Source of the DNA: Pseudosulfitobacter koreensis | GTDB lineage: Bacteria > Pseudomonadota > Alphaproteobacteria > Rhodobacterales > Rhodobacteraceae | Assembly: GCF_024733015.1 (NCBI RefSeq) | Contig: NZ_JANKJG010000006.1 | Coordinates: 62,001-126,000 of the forward strand | Length of the DNA stretch: 64,000 nucleotides | Direction of reading: 5' to 3' | In this document: positions 8,362 to 57,254 of the stretch, one piece after another | Layout of the letters: every line of letters begins with the position of its first letter | Numbering within the stretch: the first letter of the stretch is position 1 | Notes under the pieces: generated by a model | Seen by the model: the letters and a program-made list of their open reading frames with translations, nothing else | What the model was told of the DNA's origin: nothing | The model's database searches: none | Position numbers and translations under genes: made by a program

Positions 8362-9562
<1,201 letters not shown>

Positions 9563-48895: not shown

Positions 48896-50068
48896 ATGAC
48901 CGAAGTGATCATTTCCGGTGCATCGCGCACACCTATGGGCAGCTTTCAGGGCGCTCTTTCCGGTTTGACAGCCGCCGAACTGGGCGGTGCCGCGATCCGC
49001 GCAGCGCTGGCAGGGGCCGGCACAGACACGGTGGACGAGGTGCTGATGGGCTGCGTGTTGCCCGCAGGCCAGGGGCAGGCTCCGGCGCGTCAGGCCGGTT
49101 TCGCTGCGGGACTGGGCAAGGAGGTGCCTGCGACAACGCTGAACAAGATGTGCGGTTCGGGCATGAAGGCGGCGATGATCGCCTTCGACCAGATCGCGCT
49201 GGGTCACACCGACCTGATGATCGCGGGCGGCATGGAAAGCATGACACAGGCCCCGTACCTCCTGCCCAAGATGCGCGAGGGTGCGCGCTTGGGGCATGGT
49301 CAGGTCATTGACCACATGTTCCTCGACGGGCTTGAAGACGCCTATGACAAGGGGCGCCTGATGGGCACCTTTGCCGAAGACTGCGCCGAGGCGTTCCAGT
49401 TCACCCGCGAAAAGCAGGACGATTATGCGTTGGCCTCGCTCAGCCGCGCGCTTGAGGCACAGGAAAGCGGTGCCTTTGCTGATGAAATCGCCTCGGTCGA
49501 CGTCAAATCCCGCAAGGGCTCGGTCACGGTCAGCGCGGACGAACAGCCCGCCAACGCCCGCCCCGACAAGATCCCGCAGCTTAAGCCCGCGTTCCGCGAG
49601 GGCGGCACCGTCACTGCGGCCAATTCCTCGTCGATCTCGGATGGGGCGGCGGCTCTTGTCCTCAGCTCTGCCGAGGCGGCCAAAGCGCGTGGTCTGACCA
49701 TGCGTGCGCGCATCCTGGGCCACGCCAGCCATGCGCAGGAACCGGGCCTGTTCACCACGGCCCCCGTGCCTGCCGCGCAAAAGCTGCTGGCGCGGATCGG
49801 CTGGACCAAGGACGACGTGGATCTGTGGGAGGTCAACGAGGCCTTTGCCGTGGTGCCGCTGGCCTTCATGCACGAAATGGGGCTGAGCCATGACATCGTG
49901 AACGTCAACGGCGGTGCCTGTGCGCTGGGCCACCCCATCGGTGCATCGGGCGCGCGGATTATCGTGACGCTGCTGAACGCACTGGAAAAACGCAACCTCA
50001 AGCGGGGCGTGGCCGCCATCTGCATCGGCGGCGGCGAAGGCACCGCCATCGCGATCGAACGTATATGA
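48896..50068 (+). CDS. Acetyl-CoA acetyltransferase (thiolase)
   Basis: 390 residues. The acyl-accepting Cys86 is in LNKMCGSGMK, the second motif NGGACALGHPIGASGAR holds the catalytic His and the C-terminal CIGGGEGTA the second Cys. The thiolase could serve beta-oxidation or polyhydroxybutyrate precursor synthesis; no phaB or phaC is adjacent. Ends with an ATGA overlap with the sulphoxide reductase gene. Confidence 0.95.
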   Translation: MTEVIISGASRTPMGSFQGALSGLTAAELGGAAIRAALAGAGTDTVDEVLMGCVLPAGQGQAPARQAGFAAGLGKEVPATTLNKMCGSGMKAAMIAFDQIALGHTDLMIAGGMESMTQAPYLLPKMREGARLGHGQVIDHMFLDGLEDAYDKGRLMGTFAEDCAEAFQFTREKQDDYALASLSRALEAQESGAFADEIASVDVKSRKGSVTVSADEQPANARPDKIPQLKPAFREGGTVTAANSSSISDGAAALVLSSAEAAKARGLTMRARILGHASHAQEPGLFTTAPVPAAQKLLARIGWTKDDVDLWEVNEAFAVVPLAFMHEMGLSHDIVNVNGGACALGHPIGASGARIIVTLLNALEKRNLKRGVAAICIGGGEGTAIAIERI

Positions 50069-50517
50069 TGGTCAACTACCAGACGCTCGCGCAGACGCTG
50101 CAATCGCTGACCGAGGGCGAGGATGATGCCGTCGCCCTGATGGCGACGGTTGCCTGCGAGGTGCATCATTCCGACGACAGGTTCGACTGGACCGGGTTCT
50201 ACCGGGTCACCGCGCCCGAAATGTTGAAGATCGGCCCCTATCAGGGCGGGCACGGCTGTCTGCAGATCCCGTTTTCGCGCGGGGTTTGCGGCGCTGCGGC
50301 GCGCACCGGACAGGTGCAGCTGGTGCCTGACGTCGAGGCCTTTGCCGACCACATCGCCTGCGCCAGCAGCACACGGTCGGAACTGGTCTTGCCGGTGCAT
50401 GACCGTAATGGCGATCTGATCGCGGTCTTCGACATCGACAGCGACCAGCCCGATGCGTTCACCCAAGGCGACGCCGAGGCGTTGGAACGTATTCTGGCGG
50501 GCATTTTCAGCCGCTGA
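50065..50517 (+). CDS. msrC: Free-methionine-(R)-sulphoxide reductase (fRMsr, GAF domain)
   Basis: 150 residues of the GAF fold. The three cysteines Cys65, Cys75 and Cys99 (HGCLQ, GVCG, IACAS) have spacings 10 and 24, identical to Cys84/94/118 of the E. coli enzyme. It reduces free Met-R-sulphoxide with thioredoxin. Coupled to the thiolase by overlapping ATG and stop; the relation to that gene is probably only transcriptional. Confidence 0.94.
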   Translation: MMVNYQTLAQTLQSLTEGEDDAVALMATVACEVHHSDDRFDWTGFYRVTAPEMLKIGPYQGGHGCLQIPFSRGVCGAAARTGQVQLVPDVEAFADHIACASSTRSELVLPVHDRNGDLIAVFDIDSDQPDAFTQGDAEALERILAGIFSR

Positions 50518-50527
50518 TCGACGCGCG

Positions 50528-50552
50528 GTGAAATAATCTCTTGATTTTTCAC
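50528..50552. promoter_or_regulatory. 25-base repeat, operator copy 1
   Basis: GTGAAA…TTTCAC arms enclosing 13 bases, located 11 bases after the msrC stop. It matches copy 2 at 20 of 25 positions. Probably a binding site of the XRE-cupin regulator encoded downstream (inference). Confidence 0.65.
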
Positions 50553-50567
50553 GGGCGCCGCCGCACC

Positions 50568-50592
50568 GTGAAATTATCAAGTCATTTTTCAC
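50568..50592. promoter_or_regulatory. 25-base repeat, operator copy 2
   Basis: Same arms GTGAAA…TTTCAC. Its start is 40 bases from copy 1 (close to four helical turns), and it ends 12 bases before the XRE-cupin ATG at 50605, where it would overlap the promoter or ribosome site. Confidence 0.65.
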
Positions 50593-50604
50593 CGCGAGTC
50601 GCAG

Positions 50605-51177
50605 ATGCTGCAATCCAATCCCGATACGGCCAAAACGCTGGGCGCGGATCTGCGTGCGCTGCGCAAGGCGCGGGGGATCACCTTGCAGGACATGGCGGAC
50701 GCGCTGGGCCGCTCCGTCGGTTGGCTCAGCCAGGTCGAGCGTGATCTCTCCGAGCCGTCGATCACCGATCTGCGCCATATCGCGGCGCACCTGGGCGTGT
50801 CGGTGTCGATGCTGTTTCGCTATGCCGCCGCACCTGCGGACGAGGCAGGCTATATCGTGCGCAAGAACGCGCGCCGTCCCATCGGGACGCCCATCGCCGG
50901 ACTGGTCGAGGAACTGCTGTCGCCCGATCTGACTGACGACTTCGAGATGGTGCATTCCACCTTTGCACCGCATTCCCAGATTGCCGACCCGGTCACGCGC
51001 CCGACGCAGGAAGTCGGCTATCTGGTCTCGGGCACGCTTGAACTGGAGATTGCAGGCATCCGCTACACTATCCAGCCCGGCGATAGTTTCCGCATTCGCG
51101 GCGAGCCTTTCCGCTGGATCAACCCCCATGATACGCCCGCCGTGGCGATCTGGGTCATCGCGCCCCCTGTGTATTGA
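50605..51177 (+). CDS. XRE-cupin transcriptional regulator
   Basis: 190 residues. An N-terminal helix-turn-helix of XRE type ([36 protein letters not shown], roughly 12-48) is followed by a C-terminal cupin domain (EVGYLVSGTLELEIAG … IQPGDSFRIRG … HDTPAVAIWV). XRE-cupin proteins usually sense small metabolites. Placement directly upstream of the demethylating dehydrogenase genes suggests it controls betaine/dimethylglycine catabolism, and the paired repeats in its leader suggest autoregulation. Ligand unknown. Confidence 0.93.
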   Translation: MLQSNPDTAKTLGADLRALRKARGITLQDMADALGRSVGWLSQVERDLSEPSITDLRHIAAHLGVSVSMLFRYAAAPADEAGYIVRKNARRPIGTPIAGLVEELLSPDLTDDFEMVHSTFAPHSQIADPVTRPTQEVGYLVSGTLELEIAGIRYTIQPGDSFRIRGEPFRWINPHDTPAVAIWVIAPPVY

Positions 51178-51342
51178 GGGTGATGTGATGGGCCGCGCAT
51201 TTCCAGACGGGCAAAACCGTGACGAGGTCAACTTCGGGCGCGCGTCCGGTATGCTTGCGGCCTCTAGACGCCTGACATGCCACCTCTTCACCGAAGCCAG
51301 CGGCGATCATTCCCGTATCCCCGCACATGAGGACCGCGACGC

Positions 51343-53790
51343 ATGAGCACCTTTCCCACCACGGCCCGTGTGGTCATCATCGGCGGCGGTGTCGTCGGCA
51401 CCTCGGCGCTCTACCATCTGGCCAAGGCGGGTTGGACCGATTGCGTCCTGCTGGAAAAGAACGAGTTGACCGCAGGCAGCACCTGGCACGCGGCGGGCAA
51501 CTGCCCCAGCTTCAGCACCTCCTGGGCGGTGATGAACATGCAGCGCTATTCGCTCGGCCTCTATGCCGGACTTGCCGAGGCGGTGGATTACCCGATGAAC
51601 TACCACGTCACCGGATCGGTGCGGCTGGGCCATTCCCGCGAACGGATGCAGGAGTTCGAGCGCGCCCGTGCGATGGGCCGCTATCAGGGTCTCGACCTCG
51701 AGATGATGGCCGTCAGCGACATCAAGGACCGCTATCCGTTCATCGAGGTTCACGATCTTGCGGGTGCCCTGTGGGACCCTGACGACGGCGACATCGACCC
51801 CGCGCAACTGACACAGGCGCTGGCCAAGGGCGCGCGCAGCATGGGCGCCCGCATCGAACGCTTCTGTCCCGCCACCGGTATCAGCCGCGAAGGTGGCGAA
51901 TGGATCGTCCACACCGACAAGGGCAACATCCGCTGCGAAAAGGTGGTGAACGCCGCCGGATATTATGCGCAGCGCGTTGGCGAATGGTTCAAACCTTTCG
52001 GCGGGCGAACCGTGCCGATGACCGTGATGAGCCATCAGTATTTCCTGACCGAGGAAATCCCGGCCCTCGCCGACTGGACCCGCGAAAACGGCCGCAAGGT
52101 GCCGCTGCTGCGCGATGTCGACAGCTCGTACTACCTGCGGCAGGACAAGAACGGGCTGAACCTTGGCCCCTACGAGCGGAACTGCCGTGCGCATTGGATA
52201 ACACCCGACGATCCGATGCCGGAGGACTTCAGCTTTCAGCTCTATCCCGACGATCTGGAACGGCTGGAATGGTATATCGAGGATGCGATGGCCCGCGTAC
52301 CGATCCTCGGCACCGCCGGTGTCGGCCGCGTGATCAACGGACCCATCCCCTATGCGCCCGACGGTCTGCCGCTGCTGGGTCCGATGCCCGGCGTGCCCAA
52401 CGCTTTCGAAGCCTGCGTGTTCACCTTTGGCATTACCCAAGGCGGCGGCGCGGGCAAGGTGCTGGCCGAATGGGTCACCGAAGGTCAGACCGAATGGGAT
52501 ATGTGGTCCTGCGATCCGCGCCGCTATACCGACTATACCGATCAGGACTATTGCAATCATAAGGCGACGGAGACCTATGGCCACGAATACGCGATGCACT
52601 TCCCGCGTCATTCCTGGCCTGCAGGACGCGATCGCAAACTGTCGCCCGCGCATGATCTGGTGTTGGCAAAGGGCGGCGTCATGGGCGCCTACAACGGCTG
52701 GGAACGCGCCAACTGGTTCGCCAAACCCGGCGACGACCTGAGCGAGGCGGCGACCCAGACATGGGAGCGCGCAGGCCCATGGTCTGTGCGCGTGCGCGAA
52801 GAAGTCGAGGCGGTGCGCGACGACGTCGGTGTGCTGGACCTGCCGGGGTTCTCGCGCTTCGACCTTTCGGGCGCAGGTGCCGCCGAATACCTGCGCGGCA
52901 AGATTGCTGGCGGCCTGCCCAAGGTCGGGCGCATGAACCTCGGCTATTTCCCCGACAGCCGGGGCCGCATCCTGACCGAAATGTCGATCCTGCGGCACGC
53001 CCAGGATGCGTTCACCCTGATCACCGCGGCGACCGCCCAGTGGCACGACCGCGACGTGCTGCGCGAGGGGCTTCCCGTAGCGCTGTCACTCACTGACCAT
53101 ACGACAGAGTACGGAACGCTGATCGTCACCGGGCCCAACAGCCGCGCGCTGTTTGAACGTCTGGACACGCAGGCAGACCTAGCCGCCCCTTGGCTCACGC
53201 ATCAACCAGCCAGGGTGGCGGGCATCGACTGCGCCCTCGCGCGGGTCTCCTTCGCAGGCGAACTCGGCTGGGAAATCCACGCGGCCAACGCGGATATCGC
53301 CGCACTCTACGCCGCCGTGACCGGCGCAGGCGCGAGACCTTTCGGAATGTACGCGCTGAACGCGCTGCGCATCGAAAAAGGCTACCGCACGTGGAAGGGC
53401 GACCTCAGCACAGACTATACCCTGTTCGAAGGCGGCCTCGACCGCTTCGTCAAACTGGACAAACCGCAGGACTTCCCCGGCAAACAGGCGCTGATGAACG
53501 AGCGGCAACGGGGCGTCGCGAAACGCTTCGTCACGCTGATCGTCGACGCAGGCGACGCCGACGCGCCCTATATGTCGACGCTCTGGCATAACGGCGTGGT
53601 CGTCGGCGAAACCACCAGCGGCGATTGGGGCTTCCGCGTCAATGCGTCGATCGCGCTGGGCATGGTGCGCGCTGATCTGGCCGTGGCTGGCACCGAACTG
53701 CATGTCGAGATCTTCGGCACGAAATGCCGCGCCGTGGTGCAACCGGAACAGCCCCTGTGGGACCCCGACAACATCCGCTTGCGGGCCTGA
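51343..53790 (+). CDS. FAD/GcvT-type dimethylglycine/sarcosine dehydrogenase-like protein, divergent copy
   Basis: 815 residues. N-terminal FAD motif IIGGGVVGTSALYHL (about 12-26), flavinylation-type motif GSTWHAAG with His49 (the covalent-FAD His of dimethylglycine dehydrogenase), and a C-terminal GcvT aminomethyltransferase domain (FAGELGWEIH, RIEKGYRTWKGDLS). Dimethylglycine and sarcosine dehydrogenases demethylate their substrate and pass the one-carbon unit to tetrahydrofolate. After His49 this copy has NCPSFSTSW where the second copy has LIAQLRASAN, so substrate preference may differ. ATG at 51343 overlaps no other gene. Confidence 0.92.
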   Translation: MSTFPTTARVVIIGGGVVGTSALYHLAKAGWTDCVLLEKNELTAGSTWHAAGNCPSFSTSWAVMNMQRYSLGLYAGLAEAVDYPMNYHVTGSVRLGHSRERMQEFERARAMGRYQGLDLEMMAVSDIKDRYPFIEVHDLAGALWDPDDGDIDPAQLTQALAKGARSMGARIERFCPATGISREGGEWIVHTDKGNIRCEKVVNAAGYYAQRVGEWFKPFGGRTVPMTVMSHQYFLTEEIPALADWTRENGRKVPLLRDVDSSYYLRQDKNGLNLGPYERNCRAHWITPDDPMPEDFSFQLYPDDLERLEWYIEDAMARVPILGTAGVGRVINGPIPYAPDGLPLLGPMPGVPNAFEACVFTFGITQGGGAGKVLAEWVTEGQTEWDMWSCDPRRYTDYTDQDYCNHKATETYGHEYAMHFPRHSWPAGRDRKLSPAHDLVLAKGGVMGAYNGWERANWFAKPGDDLSEAATQTWERAGPWSVRVREEVEAVRDDVGVLDLPGFSRFDLSGAGAAEYLRGKIAGGLPKVGRMNLGYFPDSRGRILTEMSILRHAQDAFTLITAATAQWHDRDVLREGLPVALSLTDHTTEYGTLIVTGPNSRALFERLDTQADLAAPWLTHQPARVAGIDCALARVSFAGELGWEIHAANADIAALYAAVTGAGARPFGMYALNALRIEKGYRTWKGDLSTDYTLFEGGLDRFVKLDKPQDFPGKQALMNERQRGVAKRFVTLIVDAGDADAPYMSTLWHNGVVVGETTSGDWGFRVNASIALGMVRADLAVAGTELHVEIFGTKCRAVVQPEQPLWDPDNIRLRA

Positions 53791-53829: not shown

Positions 53830-54729
53830 ATGACCGATACGATGACAGAAATAATCCTCCTCGACGGCGGCATGGGTCAGGAACTGATCCACCGCGCGGG
53901 CGACACGCCGACACCTTTGTGGTCCACACAAGTGATGATCGACCATCCCGGATTGGTGGCGGAAATTCATCGCGATTTCAGGTCCGCAGGGGCAATGGTC
54001 GCAACCACGAACACCTATGCGATCCACCACGACAGGCTCGCAGGCACCGGCATGGAAGATGCCTTCGGCAGCCTGATGGCCCGCGCCCTGACCGAAGCCC
54101 GCGACAGCGGCGCGCCGTGTATCGCGGGGGCCATCGGCCCGCTTATCGCCTCGTACCGGCCCGATCTGCACCCCGATGCACAGACCGCCGTTCCCCTCTA
54201 TGCCGAAGTCGCGGGGCTGCTCGCCCCCACATGCGATCTGCTGATCTGCGAAACCGTCGCCTCGCTCGACCATGCGCGCAGTGTGCTGGCGGGTGCCTGC
54301 CCGACTGGCAAACCCGTCTGGCTGGCCCTGACCGTGGACGACCGCGACGGCTCCAGACTGCGCTCGGGCGAGCCGCTGAAAGACATCCTGCCAATCGCCG
54401 AAGAGCACGCCACAGCAATCCTCATCAACTGCTCCGCCCCCGAGGCGATCCCGGCCGCCCTCGCGATCCTCTCAAAAGGTACGCTACCGTATGGTGCCTA
54501 TGCCAACGGCTTCCAGCGCATCACCAGGGAATTCCTGCAAACCCGCCCCACCGTCGCAGACCTGCAATCGCGCCACGACCTTACCCCGCCGCTCTACGCC
54601 GACCACGTCATGGCCTGGGTCGATGCAGGTGCCACCATCGTCGGCGGCTGCTGCGAAGTCGGCCCCGCCCATATCGCCGAAATCGCCCGCCGCCTGATCG
54701 CGGCAGGTCACAGGCTTGCACGTCCCTGA
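53830..54729 (+). CDS. Homocysteine S-methyltransferase family protein (betaine-homocysteine type candidate)
   Basis: 299 residues. The zinc ligands Cys201, Cys274 and Cys275 (NCSAP, VGGCCEV) and the LLDGGMGQEL N-terminus are intact. Such enzymes move a methyl group from betaine, S-methylmethionine or dimethylsulphonio compounds to homocysteine to make methionine. Its place between two dimethylglycine-dehydrogenase-like genes favours glycine betaine as donor, giving dimethylglycine. Start at 53830 or 53842. Confidence 0.9.
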   Translation: MTDTMTEIILLDGGMGQELIHRAGDTPTPLWSTQVMIDHPGLVAEIHRDFRSAGAMVATTNTYAIHHDRLAGTGMEDAFGSLMARALTEARDSGAPCIAGAIGPLIASYRPDLHPDAQTAVPLYAEVAGLLAPTCDLLICETVASLDHARSVLAGACPTGKPVWLALTVDDRDGSRLRSGEPLKDILPIAEEHATAILINCSAPEAIPAALAILSKGTLPYGAYANGFQRITREFLQTRPTVADLQSRHDLTPPLYADHVMAWVDAGATIVGGCCEVGPAHIAEIARRLIAAGHRLARP

Positions 54730-54806: not shown

Positions 54807-57254
54807 ATGCCTGACCTTCCAGATAGTGCCCGCACAATCATCATCGGCGGCGGGGTCATCGGCTGCTCGGTCGCCTATCACCTCACGCAACTGGGCTGGA
54901 CCGACGTCGTCCTGCTGGAGCGCAAGCAGCTTACCTCCGGCACCACCTGGCACGCCGCCGGCCTGATCGCGCAACTGCGCGCCAGTGCCAACATGACCAG
55001 GTTGGCCAAATACTCGCAAGAGCTCTATGGCAATCTAGAAGCCGAGACAGGCGTCGCCACGGGGTTCAAACGCGTCGGTTCGATCACCGCCGCCCTGACG
55101 GACGAGCGTCTGGAAGAGCTGCAACGTCAGGCCGCAATGGCCCGCGCATTCGGCGTTGCGGTCGAAGAGATCAGCCCCTCCGAGATCAAGGCGAAATACG
55201 AACACCTGAACATCGACGGTGTGACGGGGGGCGTCTATCTGCCGCTCGACGGGCAGGGCGATCCGGCCAATATCGCGCTTGCGCTGGCCAAGGGGGCGCG
55301 GCAGCGCGGCGCGCGCATTCAGGAACGCGCTGCCGTCACCGCGATCACCCGCGCGGGTCGTCGTGTCACCGGTGTTGACTGGCAGGGCGAGGATGGCACC
55401 AGCGGTCACATCGCCTGCGATACGGTGGTGAACTGTGCGGGCATGTGGGGTCATCAGGTCGGGCGGATGATGGGCGTCAACGTGCCGCTGCAAGCCTGCG
55501 AGCACTTCTATATCGTCTCGGAAGCGATCCCCGGCCTCACGCCAATGCCAGTGTTGCGGGTGCCGGACGAATGCGCCTATTACAAGGAAGACGCGGGCAA
55601 GATCCTGCTCGGCGCGTTCGAACCTGTCAGCAAGCCATGGGCGACGGGCGGCATCCCCCCCGACTTCGAGTTCGACCAGCTGCCCGAGGATTTCGACCAC
55701 TTCGAGCCGATACTGGAGGCTGCGGTCAACCGGATGCCGATGCTGGCTGAAGCGGGCATCCATACGTTCTTCAACGGCCCCGAAAGCTTCACACCCGATG
55801 ATGCCTATCACCTCGGCCTCGCGCCAGAGATGGACAACGTCTGGGTCGCGGCGGGCTTCAACTCGATTGGTATCCAGTCGGCGGGCGGGGCAGGCATGGC
55901 GCTGGCGCAGTGGATGGACGCAGGCCAGAAACCCTTCGACCTTGGCGATGTCGATATCGCGCGGATGCAGCCTTTTCAGGGCAACAAGACCTACCTCGCC
56001 GCCCGCGCGTCCGAGACGCTTGGCCTGCTTTATGCCGATCATTTCCCCTATCGGCAAAAGGCCACCGCACGCGGCATTCGCCGCACGCCGTTTCACCACC
56101 ACCTGCTGGAACAGGGCGCGGTGATGGGCGAGCTGGCGGGATGGGAACGTGCCAACTGGTTCGCCAACCCGGACCAGACGCCAGCGTATAGTTATAGCTG
56201 GAAACGTCAGGCGTTCTTCGAAAACGTAGCCACCGAACACCGCGCCGTGCGCGAGAATGTCGGAATCTACGACATGTCGTCCTTCGGCAAGATCCGCGTC
56301 GAAGGGCCGGACGCCTGCGCTTTCCTCAACCACATCGGCGGCGGCCAATACGATGTGCCCGTTGGCCGCATCGTCTATACCCAGTTCCTGAACCCGCAAG
56401 GCGGAATCGAGGCGGACGTGACCGTCACCCGCCTGAGCGAGACTGCCTATCTGGTCGTCACCCCCGCCGCCACGCGTCTCGCCGACCAGACATGGATGAT
56501 GCGCAACAAGGGCGATCACAACGTGATCCTGACCGACGTGACGGCGGGCGAGGCGGTGCTTGCCGTAATGGGGCCGAACGCGCGCAAGCTGCTACAGATG
56601 GTCTCGCCCGCAGATTTCGGCAACGAAACCAACCCCTTCGGTACGGCACAAGAGATCGAGATCGGCATGGCTCTGGCCCGCGTGCACCGCGTGACATATG
56701 TGGGCGAACTGGGCTGGGAGGTCTATATCAGCGCCGACATGGCAGCTCATGTGTTCGAGGTGCTGCATGCCGCCGGACAGCAGCTCGGGGCCAAACTGTG
56801 CGGGATGCACATGATGGACACCTGCCGTATCGAAAAAGGGTTCCGCCATTTCGGTCACGACATCACCGCCGAGGATCACGTGCTGGAGGCGGGTCTGGGC
56901 TTTGCCGTCAAGCTGGACAAACCCGCCTTCATCGGGCGCGACGCGGTGCTCCGCAAAAAGGAGACAGGGCTCATGCGTCGTCTGGTGCAGTTTCGCCTGA
57001 CTGATCCAGAGCCGCTGCTCTACCATAACGAGCCGGTGCTGCGCGACGGCAAGATCGTGGGCTACCTCAGTTCGGGGGGGTACGGTCACCACTTTGGCGC
57101 GGCGATGGGCATGGGGTACGTTCCCTGCGAAGGCGAAAGCGTGGCGGATGTGCTGGCCTCGTCCTACCAGATCGACGTCGCCGGACGCCGGTACGCAGCA
57201 GAAGCCTCGCTGAAACCTTTCTATGACCCGACCGGGGCGCGCGCTAAAGTCTGA
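54807..57254 (+). CDS. FAD/GcvT-type dimethylglycine/sarcosine dehydrogenase, canonical copy
   Basis: 815 residues, the same length as the first copy. FAD motif IIGGGVIGCSVAYHL, covalent-FAD motif GTTWHAAGL with His49 and the canonical RASANMTRLAKYSQELY stretch, then a GcvT domain (YVGELGWEVY, RIEKGFRHFGHDITAEDHVLEAGLGFAVKLDK). Most likely a sarcosine or dimethylglycine dehydrogenase yielding glycine or sarcosine plus methylene-tetrahydrofolate. GGAGA precedes the ATG at 54807. It follows the homocysteine methyltransferase by 77 bases. Confidence 0.93.
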   Translation: MPDLPDSARTIIIGGGVIGCSVAYHLTQLGWTDVVLLERKQLTSGTTWHAAGLIAQLRASANMTRLAKYSQELYGNLEAETGVATGFKRVGSITAALTDERLEELQRQAAMARAFGVAVEEISPSEIKAKYEHLNIDGVTGGVYLPLDGQGDPANIALALAKGARQRGARIQERAAVTAITRAGRRVTGVDWQGEDGTSGHIACDTVVNCAGMWGHQVGRMMGVNVPLQACEHFYIVSEAIPGLTPMPVLRVPDECAYYKEDAGKILLGAFEPVSKPWATGGIPPDFEFDQLPEDFDHFEPILEAAVNRMPMLAEAGIHTFFNGPESFTPDDAYHLGLAPEMDNVWVAAGFNSIGIQSAGGAGMALAQWMDAGQKPFDLGDVDIARMQPFQGNKTYLAARASETLGLLYADHFPYRQKATARGIRRTPFHHHLLEQGAVMGELAGWERANWFANPDQTPAYSYSWKRQAFFENVATEHRAVRENVGIYDMSSFGKIRVEGPDACAFLNHIGGGQYDVPVGRIVYTQFLNPQGGIEADVTVTRLSETAYLVVTPAATRLADQTWMMRNKGDHNVILTDVTAGEAVLAVMGPNARKLLQMVSPADFGNETNPFGTAQEIEIGMALARVHRVTYVGELGWEVYISADMAAHVFEVLHAAGQQLGAKLCGMHMMDTCRIEKGFRHFGHDITAEDHVLEAGLGFAVKLDKPAFIGRDAVLRKKETGLMRRLVQFRLTDPEPLLYHNEPVLRDGKIVGYLSSGGYGHHFGAAMGMGYVPCEGESVADVLASSYQIDVAGRRYAAEASLKPFYDPTGARAKV

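Follow-up and report, generated by a model that had tools for sequence, protein, structure and literature searches.

Regulators of the XRE-cupin type have been described as local repressors which occupy palindromic sites in dimeric form and in some cases also control their own genes (PMC7901475). Their sites measure 15–25 bp and lie near the promoter, and the site of DbuR covers the −10 element (PMC12724383). The closest described counterparts of the locus presented here are the Pseudomonas repressors PauR, PsdR, ErfA and DbuR, which resemble it in the combination of an HTH domain with a cupin, in a palindromic operator and in a small local regulon beside a catabolic operon, sometimes with autoregulation (PMC7901475, PMC12724383). 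Unlike in those systems, the operator here occurs in two copies at a nearly fixed distance, at one promoter whose putative elements lie between them. Neither GTGAAA nor TTTCAC was found in the text of a survey of XRE motifs or of the XRE-cupin paper. Among full-length NCBIfam models, PuuR, the repressor of the putrescine operon of E. coli, matches the regulator best; the score of 46.7 bits falls far short of the 211 bits required for the equivalog (NF007408), and PuuR belongs to another metabolic context.

Growth on methylated glycines ties marine bacteria to the osmolytes of phytoplankton, and the enzymes that demethylate these compounds are already known. The literature searched contained no described regulator for the demethylation operon of this locus. 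The betaine and choline regulators BetI and GbdR belong to other families (TetR and AraC, respectively). Their metabolic area is related to that of the present locus (PMC4744692; PMC3572970). In Ruegeria pomeroyi, betaine, choline and carnitine raise the level of proteins for dimethylglycine and sarcosine demethylation (PMC12478193). In the literature searched, the genes SPO3396–SPO3401 were matched only in work on choline and on sRNA.

The regulator and its operon

The window, that is, the whole stretch of 64,000 nucleotides that was analyzed, contains the following genes around the regulator:

50065 to 50517, forward strand: msrC-like gene with a GAF domain (Pfam), upstream of the regulator
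50605 to 51177, forward strand: XRE-cupin regulator of 190 aa (Pfam HTH_31/HTH_3 and Cupin_2; fold match to 1Y9Q)
51189 to 51345, forward strand: remnant of a presumably gfa-like (GFA) gene that has lost ~230 bp internally (alignment with congeners L003, L115 and L118; reading frames of congeners L116 and L117)
51343 to 53790, forward strand: demethylase 1, dimethylglycine/sarcosine dehydrogenase-like, DAO-FAO_M-GCV_T (Pfam; 548–555 bits with mammalian DMGDH chains)
53830 to 54729, forward strand: homocysteine S-methyltransferase-like protein (match to profile PF02574)
54807 to 57254, forward strand: demethylase 2, dimethylglycine/sarcosine dehydrogenase-like, DAO-FAO_M-GCV_T (Pfam; 478–482 bits with mammalian DMGDH chains)

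Both HTH_31/HTH_3 and Cupin_2 are found above cut-off in the regulator, which gives it the XRE-cupin architecture, and its structure model (mean pLDDT 79.4, pTM 0.56) matches the HTH-cupin protein 1Y9Q with an E value of 4.7e-14. By inspection, the usual His-X-His metal motif is absent from the cupin. The residues R132, E136, W171, W183 and Y190 are kept and would suit a zwitterionic methylamine; R132, W171, W183 and Y190, which are invariant, are candidate residues of the binding pocket.

The initial annotation took the downstream genes for a betaine/dimethylglycine demethylation set. The second half of this description is supported, the best match of both demethylases being mammalian dimethylglycine dehydrogenase, but the betaine part is not: the S-methyltransferase scores 131 bits as a homocysteine S-methyltransferase versus 55 bits as a betaine-homocysteine methyltransferase, both under the cut-off. 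The order of the regulator, the two dimethylglycine-dehydrogenase-like enzymes and the S-methyltransferase is largely kept in most orthologs, often with further genes within the operon which, from their sequences, we take to be gfa-like and LysE-type exporter genes. Between the regulator and the demethylase, the gfa-like gene is intact in all five congeners compared and was therefore lost in the present genome. GlxA-type AraC regulator-like genes are inserted among the downstream genes of the operon in some relatives (L128, L152, L163). Read-through into the regulator from the upstream thiolase–msrC genes is possible.

The paired putative operators and their conservation

Two repeats precede the regulator gene:

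50528 to 50552, forward strand: predicted operator copy 1, GTGAAATAATCTCTTGATTTTTCAC (exact sequence; conserved in orthologs)
50568 to 50592, forward strand: predicted operator copy 2, GTGAAATTATCAAGTCATTTTTCAC (exact sequence; conserved in orthologs)

On recheck, the reported coordinates, the GTGAAA…TTTCAC arms, the identity of 20 of 25 positions and the copy-to-copy spacing of 40 bp all proved exact, as did the regulator ATG at 50605, 12 bases past copy 2. The gap of 87 bp between msrC and the regulator (50518–50604) is likewise correct; its description as nearly filled is a slight overstatement, as the copies account for 50 of the 87 bp and extend over 65 bp end to end. In each copy of 25 bases, exact arms flank 13 bp (GTGAAA-N13-TTTCAC). 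The palindromic symmetry is confined to these arms; over the whole repeats, 14 and 12 of the 25 positions are symmetric.

The 3.48-Mb genome contains exactly two matches to GTGAAA-N13-TTTCAC, both at this locus, against a chance expectation of 0.044 exact matches per genome at the base composition of the window. For comparison with relatives, the upstream regions of 122 orthologous regulators (47–100% identical) were searched, counting sites with at most two arm mismatches. At least one site was present in all 122, two or more in 101 and a single recognizable one in 21, while the reversed pattern occurred in 1 of the 122 regions and in none of the downstream stretches. In 80 loci with organism names, mostly from Sulfitobacter, Tateyamaria, Roseobacter and Roseovarius relatives and from genomes partly overlapping the first set, paired sites were found in 76. 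The palindrome pair is conserved at the equivalent position across roseobacters. Among the arm mismatches, A for G at position 1 and T for C at position 25 are the commonest, so that the consensus becomes RTGAAA-N13-TTTCAY; with this relaxed pattern, the whole genome again yields the same two matches and no others. Extra single matches in relatives, which might have pointed to a wider regulon, are mostly coding (e.g., inside AccC-like and enoyl-CoA-hydratase-like genes) and were dropped.

The proposal that the repeats are operator-like and kept before orthologous regulators has thus survived the comparison that could have overturned it. The site is absent before 12 XRE-cupin genes that are paralogs or distant homologs (23–39% identity). 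It is extremely unlikely that another factor binds the repeats and that the regulator gene is merely adjacent: the sites of the genome are confined to this gene, the paralogs lack them, and they track the orthologs regardless of the upstream gene. As 1.08 Mb of ortholog loci contained no further site and the genome holds only two, the regulator appears to have a single local target, in keeping with the few local targets of XRE-cupin proteins. The conserved 25-bp site also falls within the size of XRE-cupin operators (palindromes of ~15–25 bp near a promoter), with the promoter placed by inference. The conserved twin operator is real, and its most likely role is autorepression by the XRE-cupin protein through promoter occlusion.

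A variant with overlapping sites 12 bp apart occurs in some orthologs (L124, L097, L128, L144, L104; 59–72% identical), where the packing of two dimers on the DNA may become visible.

The inverted arms might also be read as an RNA attenuator or terminator hairpin in msrC read-through transcripts, and the 93-nt stretch 50518–50610 indeed folds as one long hairpin of −45.8 kcal/mol (z −7.25, and −3.97 against arm-preserving shuffles). We consider this reading very improbable and have set it aside, given that the fold, strong as it is in the window, is neither conserved (z between −0.8 and 0.2 in three of five congeners) nor covarying (no within-site covariation of the outermost pair, Fisher p 0.33, with A–C in 38 of 215), and that transcription starting at the predicted promoter would include only part of copy 2. 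The hairpin at 50518–50610 is shared with the nearest relative (L003); three other congeners show it weakly or not at all.

The putative promoter and the operator spacing

A sigma-70-type promoter probably lies across the two copies, as judged from the following elements:

50541 to 50546, forward strand: putative −35 hexamer TTGATT within copy 1 (TTG conserved in copy 1)
50564 to 50569, forward strand: putative −10 hexamer CACCGT abutting copy 2 (17-bp spacer; promoters of the 39/40-bp class conserve CAnCGT)

Among 95 operator pairs, TTG stands at offset 11–13 of copy 1 in 86 and of copy 2 in 1. A profile of 63 promoters with 39-bp spacing shows nearly invariant arms and variable cores, together with CTTG in copy 1 and CAnCGT (CAnnGT) reaching into the first bases of copy 2; beyond the arms and these promoter-like bases, the information content of the upstream sequence is close to zero. 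Wherever TTG is present in promoters with an operator distance of 37–41 bp (73 of 73), the −35/−10 spacer comes out at 15–18 bp, and the usual operator spacing of 39–40 bp therefore fits promoter geometry. For the clade with 33–36-bp spacing, TGAAAT within copy 2 makes the best −10 candidate. A consensus promoter scan of the locus did not report CACCGT, which is a weak match to the sigma-70 consensus.

The spacing had originally been described as near four helical turns and suited to cooperative binding of two dimers. Selection of the spacing for such cooperativity on a single helix face would be compatible with repression from the two copies, and the spacing is tight in the main clade (mostly 38–41 bp). 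However, the usual 39–40 bp correspond to 3.7–3.8 turns, the 33–36-bp clade is out of phase by roughly half a turn, and overlapping 12-bp forms and single recognizable sites (21 of 122) also occur. With promoter geometry already explaining the distance, selection for cooperativity seems unlikely, and the geometry of the putative promoter appears to account for the main spacing better than cooperativity on one helix face. What looked striking in the 40-bp spacing is thereby given a plain explanation. The split into long and short spacings amounts to two changes on the regulator tree. Neither an actively maintained promoter spacing under varying operator spacing nor a compensation of operator spacing by the position of the −35 element (rank correlation 0.46) is claimed, as the two variances were equal and the phylogenetic test had no power.

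The best explanation, which we regard as quite probable, is that the copies serve the XRE-cupin regulator as twin operators which span its promoter and allow it to repress both itself and the demethylation operon by promoter occlusion. Dimers of the regulator would occupy copies 1 and 2 and thereby cover both the −35 element inside copy 1 and the −10 element abutting copy 2; from the position of these elements, the transcript would start within copy 2, at about 50575–50577. Since the copies flank the start signal of the regulator gene, which heads the operon, the regulator most likely switches off itself and its operon. The regulator and the downstream demethylation genes, presumably on one transcript, would be repressed together and at this operon only. 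Binding of a ligand to the cupin would free the promoter of the repressor; plausible candidates are methylated glycines and related compounds of the pathway.

A role as activator or dual regulator, with ligand-dependent recruitment of the polymerase from copy 1 and feedback via copy 2, is improbable. The weak −10 element could signal a promoter in need of help, but copy 1 over the −35 element and copy 2 over the predicted start region are typical repressor positions, and most of the XRE-cupin proteins characterized so far act as repressors (PMC7901475, PMC12724383).

GANTC sites beside the operator

Two features of the window concern DNA methylation:

50596 to 50600, forward strand: GAGTC, a CcrM (GANTC) site shortly past copy 2 (GANTC stands beside an operator in most paired ortholog promoters)
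8462-9562 of the window: CcrM-like DNA methyltransferase with a RAMA domain

Of 154 paired ortholog promoters, 106 (~69%) have GANTC next to an operator, its N variable and its position locked: between the copies in 48, after copy 2 in 52 and at both places in 6. Most of the sites between the copies are found 25–27 bases from the copy-1 start. For the right-flank segments, the observed GANTC count was 102 versus a mean of 14 after shuffling and versus 6–35 for other five-letter motifs of equal make-up. GANTC was present at 78 of 122 loci here versus 17 of 60 (28%) for the promoters of two control genes, and its density was 7.1 per kb versus 2.0 and 4.3 per kb in two true promoter controls. Part of the signal is thus a general feature of promoters, and an earlier estimate of about ninefold enrichment over other intergenic DNA (more over coding DNA) was scaled down after these controls.

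The genome also encodes GcrA, so that GANTC in the promoter is found together with both GcrA and a CcrM-like enzyme in the organism. In Caulobacter, GANTC between −35 and −10 typifies one class of promoters with cell-cycle timing (PMC4287350), and MucR is able to shield GANTC against methylation (PMC5172544). As a tentative and rather doubtful extension, the operator–promoter may be a composite of a metabolite repressor and the CcrM system, in which the repressor could shield GANTC, or methylation/GcrA could set the inducibility. The relevant places would be shortly past copy 2 or, between the −35 and −10 elements, 1–2 bases past copy 1. If true, such a composite would couple the catabolism of methylated osmolytes to the cell cycle.

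The outcome of this work is a predicted operator, promoter and regulator for a demethylation operon, with an ortholog of the regulator in 165 of the 346 family genomes sampled in a family search at one genome per genus.
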